From assembly GCA_903872185.1 (NCBI GenBank), contig CAIQJL010000397.1:1-44416 (forward strand): 44,416 nucleotides of DNA, in the 5' to 3' direction. Under the pieces are notes generated by a model that saw only the letters and a program-made list of their open reading frames with translations, was not told the origin of the DNA and did not search any database. Positions 1 through 42,549 of the stretch are shown here, piece by piece. The first letter of the stretch is position 1. Every line of letters starts with the position of its first letter. A program made the translations under genes and the position numbers. The DNA comes from an uncultured Bacteroidota bacterium (GTDB lineage Bacteria; Bacteroidota; Bacteroidia; Bacteroidales; GWA2-32-17).

Positions 1-135
1 AAAAATAATCAATTGTGGTCTAGGTTGACTAAAGAAGAACAAGAAGAATTAATTCTTATTGAAAAAGAAAGCCATAATGACGAAAACTTAATCAAACATT
101 CAGAAGTTTCAAAAAAGCATAAAAAATGGCTTTAG
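1..135 (+). CDS. C-terminal fragment of an antitoxin-like small protein (5' end outside window)
   Basis: An open frame runs from base 1 to a TAG at 133-135, giving 44 residues that are rich in Lys/Glu and end in KKHKKWL. The pattern is a Trp-containing LTKEEQEEL helix, then an acidic stretch, then HSEVSKKHKKWL. It resembles the C-terminus of small Bacteroidota antitoxins of RelE/ParE-type modules, which often end in a HEEV..KY..W(L) helix. No toxin gene follows: the next gene is convergent and ends 54 bases away. The gene is therefore an orphan, or the toxin lies upstream outside the window. The reading frame is clear; the antitoxin assignment rests on recall of the family and is uncertain. 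Confidence 0.5.
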   Translation, partial: KNNQLWSRLTKEEQEELILIEKESHNDENLIKHSEVSKKHKKWL

Positions 136-148
136 AAATTTTATTTCT

Positions 149-176
149 CACAGAGTCTCATGAAATGGACTCTGTG
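149..176. repeat. 28-bp hairpin repeat (CACAGAGTC family), probable bidirectional terminator
   Basis: A perfect 9-bp inverted repeat, CACAGAGTC ... GACTCTGTG, encloses the 10-nt loop TCATGAAATG. The arms and the TCATGAA part of the loop recur at 7044-7071 and, slightly changed, at 6951 and 7006. It lies between two convergent genes whose stop codons are at 135 and 189, so it probably ends transcription from both sides. That role is inferred. Confidence 0.8.
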
Positions 177-188
177 ATGGAATCTCTT

Positions 189-1097
189 TTATAACATTGC
201 AGGTTTAATATCTTTCTTAGAAATTATATCAAAGGCTAATATAATATCGTGTGATCCGCTATTGTATTTTCTAAGTTTAGAAATTACAAAATCATATGCA
301 TAAGCTATAGTAAAAAGATTTTTTATTTTTACACCTGCCAAAATAACAATTGCATCATTTGTTCTATAACTCAATCCGGCAGTTATTTTTTCTTGAAATT
401 CAGCTTTTAATCCTAAGTCTAAAATTAATGGTGTTCCAAATGCACCTCCAACCATAAAAGATGGTTGAATCTTTATTTTTTCATTTAAATCAATTTTATA
501 ACAACTGGTAATGTAAAAATGGTTTGCAAGTTTTACCTCAGGATTTATTATATCATCTTTAAATTTTATTTTGTTAGCAAGCAATTGCATTATACTAATT
601 CCTGCAGAAAATTTATCGGTATATAGAAAAGTTCCAAAGTCAACATTTGGTCTTATTGATTTAATTGAAGTATGTTCAGCTATAGCTTGATCGGTATTTT
701 CATGCAAAGTAATTTTATTCCCATCAATACCATATTGCATTATTCCGGCAGCTAATCCTATTGATAGTTTAAATGTTTCGAATTTAATTTTGTAGTTATA
801 TGCAAAGGAAGCTGATAAACGACGTGTTGGTCCGGTAATGTCATTCATTATATTACCACCAATTCCCATTGTCTCATTTGTTTTTCCATTATACATCAAA
901 ACTTGCGTGCGTGGAGCGTTGCTGAAACCTGCCCACTGGCTTCTGTGATGAAGCATTACTTCACTATTAGGTTTTGTTCCATTTGCAGCAGGGTTAAATA
1001 CAGTATAATCAAATGTGTGTAATGATAGTTGAGGCAATTGCTGGGCATTGCAATTGATAATATTTATAAAAAACAATATGTAGAATAGTCTTTGCAT
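189..1097 (-). CDS. PorP/SprF family type IX secretion-associated outer membrane protein
   Basis: 302 residues with a signal peptide (1-18, cleavage before QQLPQ). The mature start YTVFNPAANGTK fits the NPA motif seen near the N-terminus of this family. It is followed by HHRSQWAGF, then NGKTNETMGIGGNI and repeated amphipathic strands typical of an 8-14-stranded outer membrane barrel. PorP/SprF proteins work with the type IX secretion system; many are encoded beside one secreted cargo carrying a type B C-terminal domain and help place it at the surface. That arrangement holds here: the start lies 5 bp after the stop of the type B cargo gene (1103-3007). Family assignment is firm; the specific cargo partnership is inferred from adjacency. 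Confidence 0.88.
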   Translation of the reverse strand: MQRLFYILFFINIINCNAQQLPQLSLHTFDYTVFNPAANGTKPNSEVMLHHRSQWAGFSNAPRTQVLMYNGKTNETMGIGGNIMNDITGPTRRLSASFAYNYKIKFETFKLSIGLAAGIMQYGIDGNKITLHENTDQAIAEHTSIKSIRPNVDFGTFLYTDKFSAGISIMQLLANKIKFKDDIINPEVKLANHFYITSCYKIDLNEKIKIQPSFMVGGAFGTPLILDLGLKAEFQEKITAGLSYRTNDAIVILAGVKIKNLFTIAYAYDFVISKLRKYNSGSHDIILAFDIISKKDIKPAML

Positions 1098-1102
1098 CTA
1101 AA

Positions 1103-3007
1103 TTATCTGATTATTGTTACGTCACCCTTAAAAACATCTTGTCCCGAGATGTTTAAAATATAATAATAAGTTGCCTCTGGTAAATCATTTCCATAATATT
1201 TCCCGTCCCATTCATTGTTGTATCCTTGTTTATCATAAACGATATGACCATTTCTATTGTAAATACTTAAATGATTATCTGGATATTGTGAAATGTTATC
1301 AATAAACCATGTGTCATTTACTCCATCAACATTTGGAGTAAAAGTATTATTAATTACAATCTCATAAAAAGGTTTAGGTATTGTAGTTAATGTTATAGCA
1401 TCATAATTATAACAACCGTTATTGTCATAAACTGTTAAAATATAAGTTGTAGTATTGTTTAAGGTAGCTATCGGATTTAAAATATTTGCATTTGATAATC
1501 CCGTTAAAGGTGCCCAAATTGCTGTGGAATAATTTGAAACTGTTGGTGTAAATTGGTATTGACTACCTTCATAAATAGTTGAATCTACACCTGCATTTAC
1601 TGTTGGTTTAGATAATGTCGTAACCAAAACAGTGTCAGTTTTACTACATTGTCCATTTGTAACATTAACAATATAAGAAGTATTATTTGCAGGATTTGCT
1701 ATCGGGTTACTAATATTCGCATTGCTTAATCCAGAACTTGTCAACCAATTATATATTGTTCCTCCTGTTGCATTTAATTGAATAGAATCGCCTTGACATA
1801 TAGATACATCATTTCCTGCATTTGCTAAAGGAAGTGGAGTAAGAGATACAGTTATAGAGTCATTTGAAGTGCAGTTATTTGCAGATACAGTAACATGATA
1901 AACACCGCTTGAAATCGCATTTATTGTTTGAGTATTTGATCCGTTTGACCATAAATAACTTGTAAACTGGTTTGAAGCATCTAACAATATTGTATCGCCA
2001 AAACATCCTGTATGATTTTGTCCTAGTTCTACTTTGTTTGATGAATTTCCTAAAACAAAAATATTAGATCCAGTAAAGAGCCAATGATTTATTTTAACAT
2101 TGCTTGTAGAATTGTTAAATATATATTGTGTGCTGTCAGTTTCTTTCCATTTAGCTGGCGGTGTGCTATTCCAGTTTGCTGCGGTTGTTTGTATTCCATC
2201 TGTTAATGAATCGTAATAAAAAATAATTCTCGCATAAGTTGAGCCACTGTCACGATTTACAAAATGATAATATTTGTTATTCAAATTACAAATATTTGTA
2301 TCGGTCTGATTTAAGTTGAACCCATCATTTCCTGCATTATGGTTAACCATTCCAGCTGAATATTTATTTGTTGTATTGTTAACAGGAATAATCTCAACTG
2401 GCCTGTATCTTTGTAAAATATTTGATGATCCTAAGGGAAAAAGATAATTTGTATTAGAATTAGTTTTTCTAATTAATCTTCCCTGCAAGTTATTACTAAC
2501 AAAGCCAGTCGTTCTCGAAATGGCTGTTGTGTTAGGGTTTTCAATTTCTAAATTAAAATTTGCAATATCAATTTCTCTGTCGTTTAATACAAGCGAATTA
2601 GAAATATTTACATTCTGATTAAGGCTTTTAATTTCATTGCCCATTAATGTTAAATTATAGAAATCGCTAGGGTTTGCACCTCCTATAATTTGTGTGTTAC
2701 CTTCTAAAATAACATTTCCATTAAAGTGATTAAAAACTGAATTGTTTTGCCAGTTTCCATAAAGATTAATGTTCCCGTTTGAGTTTAATTGCGAATTGTT
2801 AATTAAATTACCAGAAATAGTAAGTTCTCCATTATTGTTTAATATAGACCCTGTTTTATTCTCAATATCTCCAGAAATTTTAACAATAGCTCCATTTGAA
2901 ATATAAATTAAACCTGAATTATTAGTCATTAATTGTGAAAAGCAATTAAGCTGAAAAACCAGCAAAAAAACTTTAATTAAAAGAATATATTTAAGGTTTT
3001 TGGCCAT
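1103..3007 (-). CDS. Secreted surface protein with T9SS type B (gliding-motility type) C-terminal sorting domain
   Basis: 634 residues. A signal peptide (1-25, ending NCFSQ) is followed by Asn/Gly-rich beta-helix-like repeats (about 30-120; ISNGAIVKISGDI, NNNGELTISGNL, NSNGNINLYGNW). Two or three Ig/PKD-like modules follow (about 330-540; CFGDTILLDAS, ICQGDSIQLNA). The last 79 residues are a type B sorting domain: FTPNVDGVNDTW, HLSIYNRNGHIVYD, YNNEWDGKY, ATYYYIL and the terminal KGDVTIIR. This domain directs export through the type IX system and surface attachment or release. The gene sits between the surface protein at 3025-4356 (17 bp gap) and the PorP/SprF gene (5 bp gap), so the three are probably co-transcribed. 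The binding target cannot be read from sequence. Confidence 0.9.
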   Translation of the reverse strand: MAKNLKYILLIKVFLLVFQLNCFSQLMTNNSGLIYISNGAIVKISGDIENKTGSILNNNGELTISGNLINNSQLNSNGNINLYGNWQNNSVFNHFNGNVILEGNTQIIGGANPSDFYNLTLMGNEIKSLNQNVNISNSLVLNDREIDIANFNLEIENPNTTAISRTTGFVSNNLQGRLIRKTNSNTNYLFPLGSSNILQRYRPVEIIPVNNTTNKYSAGMVNHNAGNDGFNLNQTDTNICNLNNKYYHFVNRDSGSTYARIIFYYDSLTDGIQTTAANWNSTPPAKWKETDSTQYIFNNSTSNVKINHWLFTGSNIFVLGNSSNKVELGQNHTGCFGDTILLDASNQFTSYLWSNGSNTQTINAISSGVYHVTVSANNCTSNDSITVSLTPLPLANAGNDVSICQGDSIQLNATGGTIYNWLTSSGLSNANISNPIANPANNTSYIVNVTNGQCSKTDTVLVTTLSKPTVNAGVDSTIYEGSQYQFTPTVSNYSTAIWAPLTGLSNANILNPIATLNNTTTYILTVYDNNGCYNYDAITLTTIPKPFYEIVINNTFTPNVDGVNDTWFIDNISQYPDNHLSIYNRNGHIVYDKQGYNNEWDGKYYGNDLPEATYYYILNISGQDVFKGDVTIIR

Positions 3008-8330: not shown

Positions 8331-10607
8331 TTAAACAATTCGAACTCCAATAACTAGAATATCGTCAATTTGTTCATGGTTTCCCATCCATCTTTCTATG
8401 CAAAATTCTATTTCTTTTTTTTGTTCAGATAATGATTTAGAATTTAGGTCAATTAGTAATTGTTTTAATCTTGATTGCATAAACTTTTTTCCGTGCGGAC
8501 CACCAAATTGGTCGTTGTAACCATCACTAAAAAGGTATATTGTATCACCTAAATTGTATTCGTAAATATTGTTAGTAAAAGGTTTTTCGTCGGTTAAATG
8601 AACTCCTATTGGCATTTTGTCTCCTTTTAGTTCGATTAATCTCGTTGTCATGCTGAGCGGAGTCGAAGCATCTATTCTAGATTTAGATTTTGCTTCGCAA
8701 GAAAGTTGTTCTTCACATTCGTTCAGAATGACAGAAGGAATAATGTATAGTGGGTTATTAGCTCCAGCAAATTCCAAATATTTTTTATCTGAATCAATAA
8801 TACAAAGTGAAATATCCATTCCGTCTTTCTGCTCACCTGTTTTTCCGGTTTGATGTAAAGAACGTTTTACGTTTATTCTAAGCTGATCTAATATTTCACT
8901 AGCAGTTGGGTTGTTGAATTTTGTTATTATTTCATTTAAAAATGCAACGCCCATCATGCTCATAAATGCACCTGGAACACCATGTCCTGTGCAATCAGCT
9001 GCAGCTATAAAAATTTTATTTTGTTGTTGGTGTATCCAGTAAAAATCTCCGCTTACTATATCTCTTGGTCTATATAAAATAAAATGTTCTGGTAAAATGT
9101 TTTTTATGTTTTCGGCAGGAGGGAGTACTGCATTTTGAATTCTACTTGCATATTGAATACTATCTGTAATCTTTTTCTGTTGTAATGCAATTTTATCTCT
9201 TTGATTTGTTACTTCGTCGCGTTGAGCTTGAATCTCGTCTCGTTGCGCCATTATTTCTTCGTTTTTTTGGTTTATTTCTACATTTCTTTGTTTTAAAAGA
9301 AAATTTGCTTTTCGTTTAAGTTGGAGCGTTTTGTATAGTGCAGAAGAAAAGAAAATAATAATTATCATAACTATAGCAATACCCAAAATTATATAGTTTC
9401 TATTCCTGAGTTCTTTTTGTTTTTTTTCTAATTCAAGATTCTGTAATTTTTTATTTTTATTAAGTACTTCTATTTGATGTTCCTTTTTTTCAGTCTGATA
9501 TTTAGTCTCAATATCAGTCATTTGTTTTATGTTATTAACTTTAAATAGTGAATCAGATAATTGGTAAGTAATTTTTTTATAATAATATGCTTGTTTAAAA
9601 TCATTTGTTTTTTCGTAAGCATCTGCAAGATTATTGGCAGTTTGAAGTATTAAATTTCCAGAGTTAATTTCTTTTGCTTTATCAAATGAAATTAATAAAT
9701 GTTTAATGCCTTGATTAAATTCGCCTATATTAATTTCAGAATTTCCTAGAATAGTATAACCGTAATAAAGTGTAGCCGGCTCTGTTGAGTTTTCATAAAG
9801 CTTTATATACTTTTTTGCTATCTGGTATCCTTTATATGGTTCATTCATGTTTATAAACAGATTAGCCATATTAAAATATGATGTTCCTAATAAATATTTA
9901 TTAGAAAGTTCTTCTGCTATAGTTTCTAATTTGATATAGTATTCAAGGGCCTTGTTGTAATTTCCAGTTATTTTTTGACAAACACCAAGGTTTGCATAGC
10001 AATATGCAGAATTTTCTTTACTATTTGTTATTAATGAAAGATTAAGAGCTTTTTCGTAATAACTTTTAGCTTTATCATATAACTGAATGTCGGAATAAGT
10101 CGCTCCGATATTTATATCTGATTGTATTAATCCAATGGTATCATGTAATTCTTCATATATTTTCTCTGAATTAATATATTGATTAAGTGATTTGTCAAAC
10201 ATTGACAGTTCGCTATATATTATACCAATAAATGTATAGGTGTCTGCAAGTCTTTTTTTGTTTTTTATTTTAAAAAATAATTCTTTTGCTTTATAAAAAT
10301 AAGAATTGGATATTTCTAATTTTCCTTTTGTGTAATAATAATCTCCTATAAGGTATTCGCACTCTGCAATTCCTTTTACATAATTATTTTCATTGGATAA
10401 AGTTCTTATATTTTTTACTTGACTGAAAAAAGTTGTAGAATCGCCTTCAATATTGAGTTCAGCTAAATCAACCAGTAAGTCGATACGCTTTAATATATTC
10501 TTTTCTTTTGCAATTTTATTAATTAATTCTGATTTGATAAGAGTATGTGCTTTGGCTTGAAACACACAAAAAATCGAAAACAAAGAAATAATTAATAATC
10601 TGTTCAT
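8331..10607 (-). CDS. TPR sensor protein with SpoIIE-type (PP2C) phosphatase domain, carrying an in-frame palindromic insertion
   Basis: 758 residues from the ATG at 10607; an in-frame TTG five codons upstream is less likely because the signal peptide MNRLLIISLFSIFCVFQAKA begins at the ATG. Periplasmic TPR repeats (about 30-370) lead to one membrane segment (about 400-425), then a coiled coil with repeated QRDE units. A SpoIIE/RsbU-type Ser/Thr phosphatase follows, with metal-binding motifs SGDFYW, ADCTGHGVPGAF and LFSDGYNDQFGG. Such proteins dephosphorylate anti-anti-sigma-type partners in signalling; the input and target here are unknown. Residues about 625-654, between NNPLYII and LIELKGDKMPIG, are encoded by a palindromic repeat. 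Relatives usually have only a few residues there. The catalytic motifs on both sides are intact, so the protein is probably still functional. Confidence 0.85.
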   Translation of the reverse strand: MNRLLIISLFSIFCVFQAKAHTLIKSELINKIAKEKNILKRIDLLVDLAELNIEGDSTTFFSQVKNIRTLSNENNYVKGIAECEYLIGDYYYTKGKLEISNSYFYKAKELFFKIKNKKRLADTYTFIGIIYSELSMFDKSLNQYINSEKIYEELHDTIGLIQSDINIGATYSDIQLYDKAKSYYEKALNLSLITNSKENSAYCYANLGVCQKITGNYNKALEYYIKLETIAEELSNKYLLGTSYFNMANLFINMNEPYKGYQIAKKYIKLYENSTEPATLYYGYTILGNSEINIGEFNQGIKHLLISFDKAKEINSGNLILQTANNLADAYEKTNDFKQAYYYKKITYQLSDSLFKVNNIKQMTDIETKYQTEKKEHQIEVLNKNKKLQNLELEKKQKELRNRNYIILGIAIVMIIIIFFSSALYKTLQLKRKANFLLKQRNVEINQKNEEIMAQRDEIQAQRDEVTNQRDKIALQQKKITDSIQYASRIQNAVLPPAENIKNILPEHFILYRPRDIVSGDFYWIHQQQNKIFIAAADCTGHGVPGAFMSMMGVAFLNEIITKFNNPTASEILDQLRINVKRSLHQTGKTGEQKDGMDISLCIIDSDKKYLEFAGANNPLYIIPSVILNECEEQLSCEAKSKSRIDASTPLSMTTRLIELKGDKMPIGVHLTDEKPFTNNIYEYNLGDTIYLFSDGYNDQFGGPHGKKFMQSRLKQLLIDLNSKSLSEQKKEIEFCIERWMGNHEQIDDILVIGVRIV
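8646..8733. repeat. 88-bp palindromic element inserted in frame in a phosphatase gene
   Basis: The ends are TGTCATGCTGA (8646-8656) and TCAGAATGACA (8723-8733), an 11-bp inverted repeat with one mismatch. Inside it CGAAGCA (from 8664) pairs with TGCTTCG (from 8690). The half-site GTCATnCTGAG...TCGAAG is shared with the intergenic element at 42401-42470. Read on the minus strand it encodes, without a stop, the residues that begin SVILNECEE and end TPLSMT. No clear target duplication flanks it. Confidence 0.8.
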
Positions 10608-10723
10608 GCTTCTATTATTCAAAACTCTTAAAAAGAAAGATATTAATCTGATAATTACTTTAGTTTCTGTATAAAATTAAAATTAATTCTTAAAGATGTA
10701 AAATTAAAAAGATTGCACTAAAT

Positions 10724-42285: not shown

Positions 42286-42400
42286 TAACGATAAAGTTGC
42301 ATTAAATTATATGTGAAATCTAATTATTCACAAACTAATGTTTACAGTTTAACACCAAAGCGAAATAATACTTAGACCAATTTGTAAGAATACAACCCAC

Positions 42401-42470
42401 AGTCATCCTGAGGTTCTCGAAGGATTTGCCCACAACCCCTCACACATGTTTCGAGAGCCTCAACATGACT
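42401..42470. repeat. 70-bp intergenic palindromic element (GTCATnYTGA family)
   Basis: The arms AGTCATCCTGAGGTTCTCGA (42401-42420) and the stretch ending CCTCAACATGACT (42450-42470) are complementary over 21 bp with three mismatches, enclosing about 28 nt. The half-site GTCATnCTGAG...TCGAAGnAT is shared with the element at 8646-8733. It lies in the 289-bp gap between the epimerase and transglycosylase genes; no other feature is seen in that gap. Confidence 0.85.
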
Positions 42471-42549
42471 CCACATATTAGGAATAGTTTGTAATTCACT
42501 TTGGTATAATTTAAAAAATAAGAATTAATTTAAAAATAACAATGTTCAA

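Follow-up and report, generated by a model that had tools for sequence, protein, structure and literature searches.

How does a small palindromic repeat come to be read in frame inside the catalytic domain of a signalling enzyme, and is such a case an isolated accident? The question is raised by contig CAIQJL010000397.1 of assembly GCA_903872185.1, from an uncultured Bacteroidota bacterium (Bacteroidales; GWA2-32-17), of which the whole stretch of 44,416 nucleotides, called the window here, was analyzed. It contains a gene with tetratricopeptide repeats (TPR) and a SpoIIE/PP2C-type phosphatase domain, in which an 88-bp element of the type of the repetitive extragenic palindromes (REPs) lies in frame. 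The explanation favored here, and considered probable, is that a permissive β-hairpin turn in this domain repeatedly captures, replaces and exchanges the palindromic repeats of each genome. The features concerned are the following.

8331-10622, minus strand: TPR and SpoIIE/PP2C-type phosphatase gene (763 amino acids, TTG start as listed, SpoIIE PF07228)
9036-9050, minus strand: catalytic motif GDFYW (sequence and alignment)
8979-8996, minus strand: catalytic motif DCTGHG (sequence and alignment)
8814-8825, minus strand: catalytic motif DGMD (sequence and alignment)
8646-8733, no strand assigned: inverted dimer of REP type, read in frame, at the turn flanked by NNPLYII and LIELKGDK (match to covariance model R1, see below, and open frame)
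8646-8674, plus strand: REP unit 1, with TGTC, stem ATGCT/AGCAT and CTA tail (sequence; intergenic copies show compensatory changes in this hairpin)
8684-8733, minus strand: REP unit 2, a long variant ending TTTCTTGCGAAGCAAAATCTA (inner boundary set by eye; the intergenic copy L002 has the same long variant)
8520-8525, minus strand: DG of motif SDG (sequence and alignment)
8361-8366, minus strand: DD near the C terminus (sequence and alignment)

The initial annotation described a mobile palindromic repeat of 88 bp with 11-bp inverted ends, read in frame, and this description stands with the small correction that the outer 11 bases match at 10 of 11 positions. Compared with dinucleotide shuffles, the fold of the element has a z-score of -3.8 on the plus strand and -3.0 on the minus strand. 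The frame of the gene is open across the element, giving VILNECEEQLSCEAKSKSRIDASTPLSMT as residues 631-659; three of the six frames of the element are open from end to end, that of the gene among them, and the loop segment is presumably translated. Known RNA families were rejected as an identity for the element, the window having no Rfam match at gathering scores.

The element is a multi-copy sequence. In the genome to which the window belongs (G000, a draft of 407 contigs), BLAST returned 45 pieces at E ≤ 10; apart from the element itself, three of these span roughly half of the query or more, with E < 1e-7. A covariance model, R1, built solely from eight intergenic dimers, finds the window element at exactly 8646-8733 (E 1.5e-7 in the genome scan, 3.5e-9 in a later scan). 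It gives 78 strand-matches in G000, 107 in G003, 127 in G004 and 61 in G001, and none in G006, a genome from another genus; these counts exceed the number of places because the palindrome is often matched on both strands. The copies share two inverted hairpin units of the form TGTC-AT-N-Y-T...A-R-N'-AT-CTA. In the eight intergenic dimers the unit stems are paired in 96.3% of 80 cells, a score that is flattered by the use of these same sequences in drawing the structure by eye; changes on both sides occur in 5 of 10 pairs, compared to 0 or 1 pairs when the structure is slid. At the level of sequence, the multiple copies, the covariance-model match, the open frame and a bare orthologue in G003 confirm the element as a REP-type inverted dimer, i.e., a small non-autonomous palindromic repeat lying in frame in a phosphatase gene.

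Within the REPs, the element likely belongs to the CGTC-tagged superfamily, as far as published descriptions of the latter go. Like its members, it has an outer TGTC, which is a stated variant of CGTC, a stem that opens with A-T pairs, and a dimeric layout. Both units have TGTC at their outer end, as do all eight intergenic dimers at either end, and the AT start of the stem is largely conserved. Unlike the described repeats, with stems of 8-9 bp, loops of 4-5 nucleotides and tails that are mostly CCA, the unit stem has five clear pairs and a longer loop in the structure drawn by eye from the eight sequences, and unit 1 has the tail CTA in seven of the eight dimers and CTG in the other.

Membership of the host protein in the SpoIIE/PP2C family is indicated by domain search, alignment and model, which reveal both the metal-binding Asp motifs and the PP2C fold. 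The best NCBIfam match of the 763-residue protein is SiaA, with 184 bits, under the family cut-off of 700. The catalytic motifs on either side of the element are intact, as had been annotated: GDFYW, DCTGHG, DGMD, SDG and DD are aligned in all eight sequences of alignment A2, with SDG being TDG in one. The catalytic domain was modelled with AlphaFold2 from an alignment of eight sequences; the model has a mean predicted local distance difference test score (pLDDT) of 78.8, with values under 50 at residues 160-185, within the encoded insert, and at 229-238 elsewhere. The best match of the model in the PDB is SiaA-PP2C (6K4E; Foldseek E 1.3e-19), the sequence of which has six unaligned residues at the position of the turn. 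Residue V564 of SiaA is reported to line a pocket close to the active-site entrance (PMC7647112). In a hand alignment it maps just after the turn, and the hairpin topology could place the turn away from the site. These are mixed hints as to whether the loop is near the active face, where, according to the initial annotation, it could change the regulation of the enzyme.

Orthologues of the window gene have the turn bare, filled and differently filled. They form a four-member group (approximate likelihood ratio support, SH-aLRT, of 99 in a tree of 136 domains that was built by a quick method with the loops removed). The orthologue in G004, an 89% identical protein, has a related REP dimer whose length differences preserve the frame; the one in G003 (74% identity over the aligned part) has a bare turn, VVKNNE; and in the one in G001 (60%) the turn is filled by a CAGT-rich palindrome that is unrelated. 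Compared to the bare G003 gene, the net insertion in G000 amounts to 29 codons or 87 nucleotides (a segment of 42 versus 13 residues). Between G000 and G004, the ratio of non-synonymous to synonymous divergence (dN/dS) is 0.04 and 0.09 in the flanks outside the loop, and such purifying selection would fit a filled copy that stays functional. A frameshift or pseudogene is ruled out by the open frame, the intact motifs and the selection on the flanks. The same two genes have 2 synonymous differences in 22.7 sites of the insert versus 55 in 112.5 sites of the flanks (Fisher p 3e-4 on rounded counts), the insert count taking in alignable codons only, which biases it towards similarity. Either the insert postdates the split between these genes, through parallel insertion or transfer, or it may be constrained as nucleic acid. 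Plain inheritance from the G000/G004 ancestor is doubtful, as the synonymous divergence of the insert is far below that of the flanks, the bias from alignable codons being kept in mind.

The turn is a hotspot for length. SpoIIE domains were collected from six genomes (G000-G004 and G006), and 162 distinct domains were aligned, 136 from these six and 26 from further genomes and records. The alignment lacks at least one filled domain, L148. Segment lengths were measured against the bare G003 orthologue, with a segment at least 8 residues longer counted as long. By this measure, 77 of the 136 domains are long at the turn, compared to 7, 3, 3, 0, 0 and 8 in the other six segments. The initial annotation expected only a few residues here in relatives, and this is correct for the G003 orthologue and for the 58 of 136 related domains labelled short; most others, however, are longer, and many of these carry other palindromic repeats. 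An isolated, odd insertion in the window gene was ruled out because sister genes carry other palindromes at the same turn. The phosphatase family itself is very large in G000 (47 candidate regions at first look), with several members adjacent on one contig (e.g., C297, C303, C301). In addition, loops L056, L165, L236, L237, L239 and L244 of G006 show apparent in-frame duplications of the flanking strand (such as EVKGDLSPGTATLVEVKGDKMPI) beside a repeat-like part.

What fills the turn was labelled by sequence pattern in 61 filled domains as family A (the REP dimer), K, Q, B, W, N1, N2, N4 or R, three W domains being re-labelled from 'other'. R1 matches 13 of the 15 domains labelled A (the exceptions are L191 and the loop of L168_128), as well as L148 outside the labelled set. 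Palindromy was assessed by keeping the peptide fixed and redrawing the codons 100 times from a pooled codon table. A z-score below -2 was obtained for 38 of 61 repeat-labelled loops, for 0 of 61 controls from the same genes and for 2 of 30 other long loops; in a dinucleotide-shuffle test, 33 of 65 loops fell below -2 versus 5 of 126 control windows. These results bear on the view that a permissive variable loop merely drifts, its likeness to repeats being incidental. The turn is indeed long and non-palindromic elsewhere: 14 of the 26 domains from other genomes are at least 8 residues longer as well, and just one of these 14 has z < -2. On the aligned domains, the turn is variable by nature, with palindromes filling many of its copies in this phosphatase family. 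For the repeat-labelled loops, however, drift is largely refuted by the covariance-model matches, the copies outside genes, the fixed-peptide palindromy and the genome-specific families, and is extremely unlikely.

The families turn over from genome to genome. On the loop-free tree at least 53 label changes are needed, 'short' and 'other' included (10 for family A and 10 for K), a count that is approximate because 53 of 133 inner branches are weak. The mutual information between family and genome is 1.57 bits, versus a shuffled mean of 0.44 (reached in 0 of 10,000 shuffles). Of the 61 filled domains, 4 share their family with the nearest domain of another genome and 30 with the filled domain closest to them in their own genome. 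For example, G003_L158 and G000_L094 carry K and their close orthologue G004_L153 carries A. Judged from these labels, the repeat family follows the genome and not orthology. It could be argued that the hairpins act as RNA, e.g., by pausing ribosomes or stabilizing the message inside the domain, and that palindromy itself is selected. Unrelated families do have palindromy and place in common, and the low synonymous divergence of the G000/G004 insert could reflect nucleic-acid constraint. A role at the RNA level is nevertheless very improbable, given that so many related domains have a short loop, that families are wholly different between orthologues, and that recent insertion or transfer accounts equally well for the low divergence, which was counted on alignable codons only.

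The flanks of the loops suggest more than one route of spread. In 20 within-genome pairs of the same family with loops at least 85% identical, near-loop flank identity averages 0.81 upstream and 0.86 downstream, versus 0.68 and 0.73 in pairs of different families, and this raised identity would fit gene conversion or duplication. In L053/L153, L207/L217, L210/L208 and L095/L096, near-identical loops stand between near-background flanks, as may be expected from insertion or loop-only transfer. For L053/L153 of G004, loop identity is 0.88, with near and far flanks at 0.67 and 0.61 upstream and 0.67 and 0.29 downstream; for L207/L217 of G001, the loop is at 0.99 and the flanks are at 0.67 and 0.36 upstream and 0.77 and 0.74 downstream. 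The most serious competitor of continuing capture is that one or a few old insertions spread among paralogues by gene conversion or duplication alone, with no continuing mobility. It draws on the 20 pairs just mentioned, on the tandem arrays on C297 of G000, C213 and C188 of G004 and C110 of G003, and on family Q, which is full-length in SpoIIE loops only, with 95-98% loop identity and raised flank identity. This scenario is unlikely in view of several near-identical loops with the adjacent 30 nucleotides at background identity, the many REP dimers outside open reading frames (ORFs), and a palindrome shared by two non-homologous turns.

Placement of the REP dimers was assessed in G000, G003, G004 and G001. 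The best-scoring R1 matches listed correspond to 87 distinct, non-overlapping places, 85 of which have no spanning ORF of at least 80 amino acids; the other two both lie in the turn. Five loops were also used as queries, with matches classed by a spanning ORF of at least 100 amino acids. The numbers in SpoIIE genes, in no ORF and in other ORFs were, respectively, 1, 19 and 2 for family A in G000 (22 of 45 rows classed), 12, 16 and 0 for A in G004, G003 and G001 (28 of 30), 4, 16 and 1 for K (21 of 23), 14, 1 and 1 for N (16 of 45), 5, 3 and 0 for W (8 of 9), and 6, 7 and 2 for Q (15 of 15), two of the seven being SpoIIE fragments at contig ends. Rows were left out as strand duplicates, as weak pieces or as neighbours of other pieces; in the case of N, some places without a locus, among them C187, C143 and C138 of G001, were left out too. 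This second placement favors SpoIIE because the queries come from SpoIIE loops; the R1 placement is less biased, since the model was trained on intergenic copies.

The palindrome shared by two turns is that of GGGGGCATGCCCCC in G001. There it also fills a second turn, between GDFYW and DCTGHG, where 14 of 31 domains have at least 15 such residues, some of them degenerate. That one repeat occupies two turns that are not homologous speaks for insertion over conversion alone. The peptide at this second turn is of the TRGHAPL type (e.g., in L208, L209, L217 and L223).

Candidate mobilizers would be transposases of the Y1 or REP-associated tyrosine transposase (RAYT) type. A search of G000 for Y1_Tnp (PF01797) gave five matches, and a cognate RAYT adjoining a REP was rejected for these, no R1 dimer having been found around them. 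In G001, L276 (C74, ORF 26-2866, minus strand) is an Eco57I-type restriction-modification methylase ORF with a Y1_Tnp segment, followed by tandem palindromes of the GGGGGCATGCC type, the same repeat as in the SpoIIE turns of that genome.

Several observations weigh against repeated capture of mobile repeats. The less biased placement test covers the best-scoring R1 matches, and most REP-labelled SpoIIE loops score below those listed. All eight full copies of family Q in G000 are in SpoIIE loops or in SpoIIE fragments at contig ends, and no further full copy was found in the four genomes searched; this family would seem to have spread without visible general mobility. At the five PF01797 loci of G000, R1 finds no dimer at E ≤ 1, although in a draft of 407 contigs a flanked gene might be missed. 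Long loops that are not palindromic occur too, 16 labelled 'other' in the related genomes besides the 14 elsewhere. Moreover, the label patterns were written after the sequences had been looked at, so that the palindromy comparison was not blind, and the shuffle tests overstate significance because tandem duplicates are not independent. Finally, the fixed-peptide signal varies by family, from 5 of 15 loops with z < -2 in A itself and 4 of 11 in K up to all of R, N2 and N4.

Under repeated capture, a REP-type inverted dimer would have entered the β-hairpin turn of the SpoIIE/PP2C domain, where its sequence lies in the open frame and would be translated as part of the protein. The turn presumably tolerates insertions and would therefore work as a landing site, which in each related genome may have been filled repeatedly by the palindromes typical of that genome. 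Filled loops turn over rapidly, differing between orthologues while being shared between paralogues. Identity that ends close to the loop would point to fresh insertion or loop-only transfer, and longer shared flanks to gene conversion or duplication. Most likely, the hotspot results from selection that purges insertions elsewhere in genes, whereas the turn survives them. Both the tolerance of the turn and the route by which the repeats move are inferred. It is also conceivable, but distinctly unlikely, that the turn is a functional cassette site, in which captured palindromes serve as a genome-specific, homogenized peptide tag for docking or partner recognition that is swapped between paralogues and replaced between species. 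If so, selfish DNA would supply and keep renewing a signalling specificity element.

Comparable repeats have been described elsewhere. Rickettsia palindromic elements (RPEs) are repeats of about 100 bp that are reported both between genes and in frame in genes for conserved proteins, and a guanylate kinase carrying an RPE is reported to be active with a changed substrate affinity (PMC2229807). The analogy with these elements, already drawn in the initial annotation, is supported at the level of description: like RPEs and their Wolbachia counterparts, the repeats here occur inside protein genes, in frame, as well as outside genes. Unlike RPEs, the in-frame copies found here cluster in a single turn within one family of paralogues and belong to several unrelated repeat families. 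The enterobacterial RU repeats and the Correia elements of Neisseria are small mobile inverted repeats with open frames that are fused to genes (PMC2759123, PMC2229807); these are different repeats from those found here, and no recurrent single site was seen in the accounts given by these sources. In mitochondria of Nematomorpha, inverted repeats inside coding sequence stay translatable (PMC6649704). Both arms of those palindromes are described as encoding conserved protein regions, whereas the palindromes here are added segments in a turn.

The initial annotation knew of no such description for this repeat family in Bacteroidota. This was too broad in one respect, since CGTC REPs have already been found in Bacteroidetes and REPs have been described within the genes of several other species, and two Xanthomonas species have different REPs at roughly the same position in recB, as far as the source goes (PMC3733652). 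A literature search, covering top-ranked and mostly open-access results, yielded general papers on intragenic repeats and no account of repeat-filled SpoIIE loops. The new parts may be the combination of a Bacteroidota REP with an intragenic position, and the hotspot. The locus offers a replicated natural experiment on selfish palindromes as a source of protein segments, with one turn, many paralogues and several unrelated families, and pairs of bare and filled orthologues such as those of G003 and G000 allow direct comparison. It is also a warning that in this group repeat-derived peptide of the VILNE...ASTPLSMT type can turn up in family alignments and in predicted genes.

A further feature of the window had been proposed as a second member of the same repeat family, at 42401.

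42399-42472, no strand assigned: intergenic palindrome of similar two-unit layout (hairpin z -6.2 on the plus strand)

Its two inverted GTCAT..GAA..AT units were recognized by eye. The family assignment could not be upheld, as the palindrome, despite its strong hairpin, has no R1 match at E ≤ 1 and none in a consensus scan allowing three mismatches; perhaps it is a diverged sibling of the REP dimers, in layout at most. Elsewhere in G000, a TPR protein (L007 on C305, ORF 1-1398, minus strand) has part of a REP unit in frame close to its N terminus (FVMLSRVEASA).
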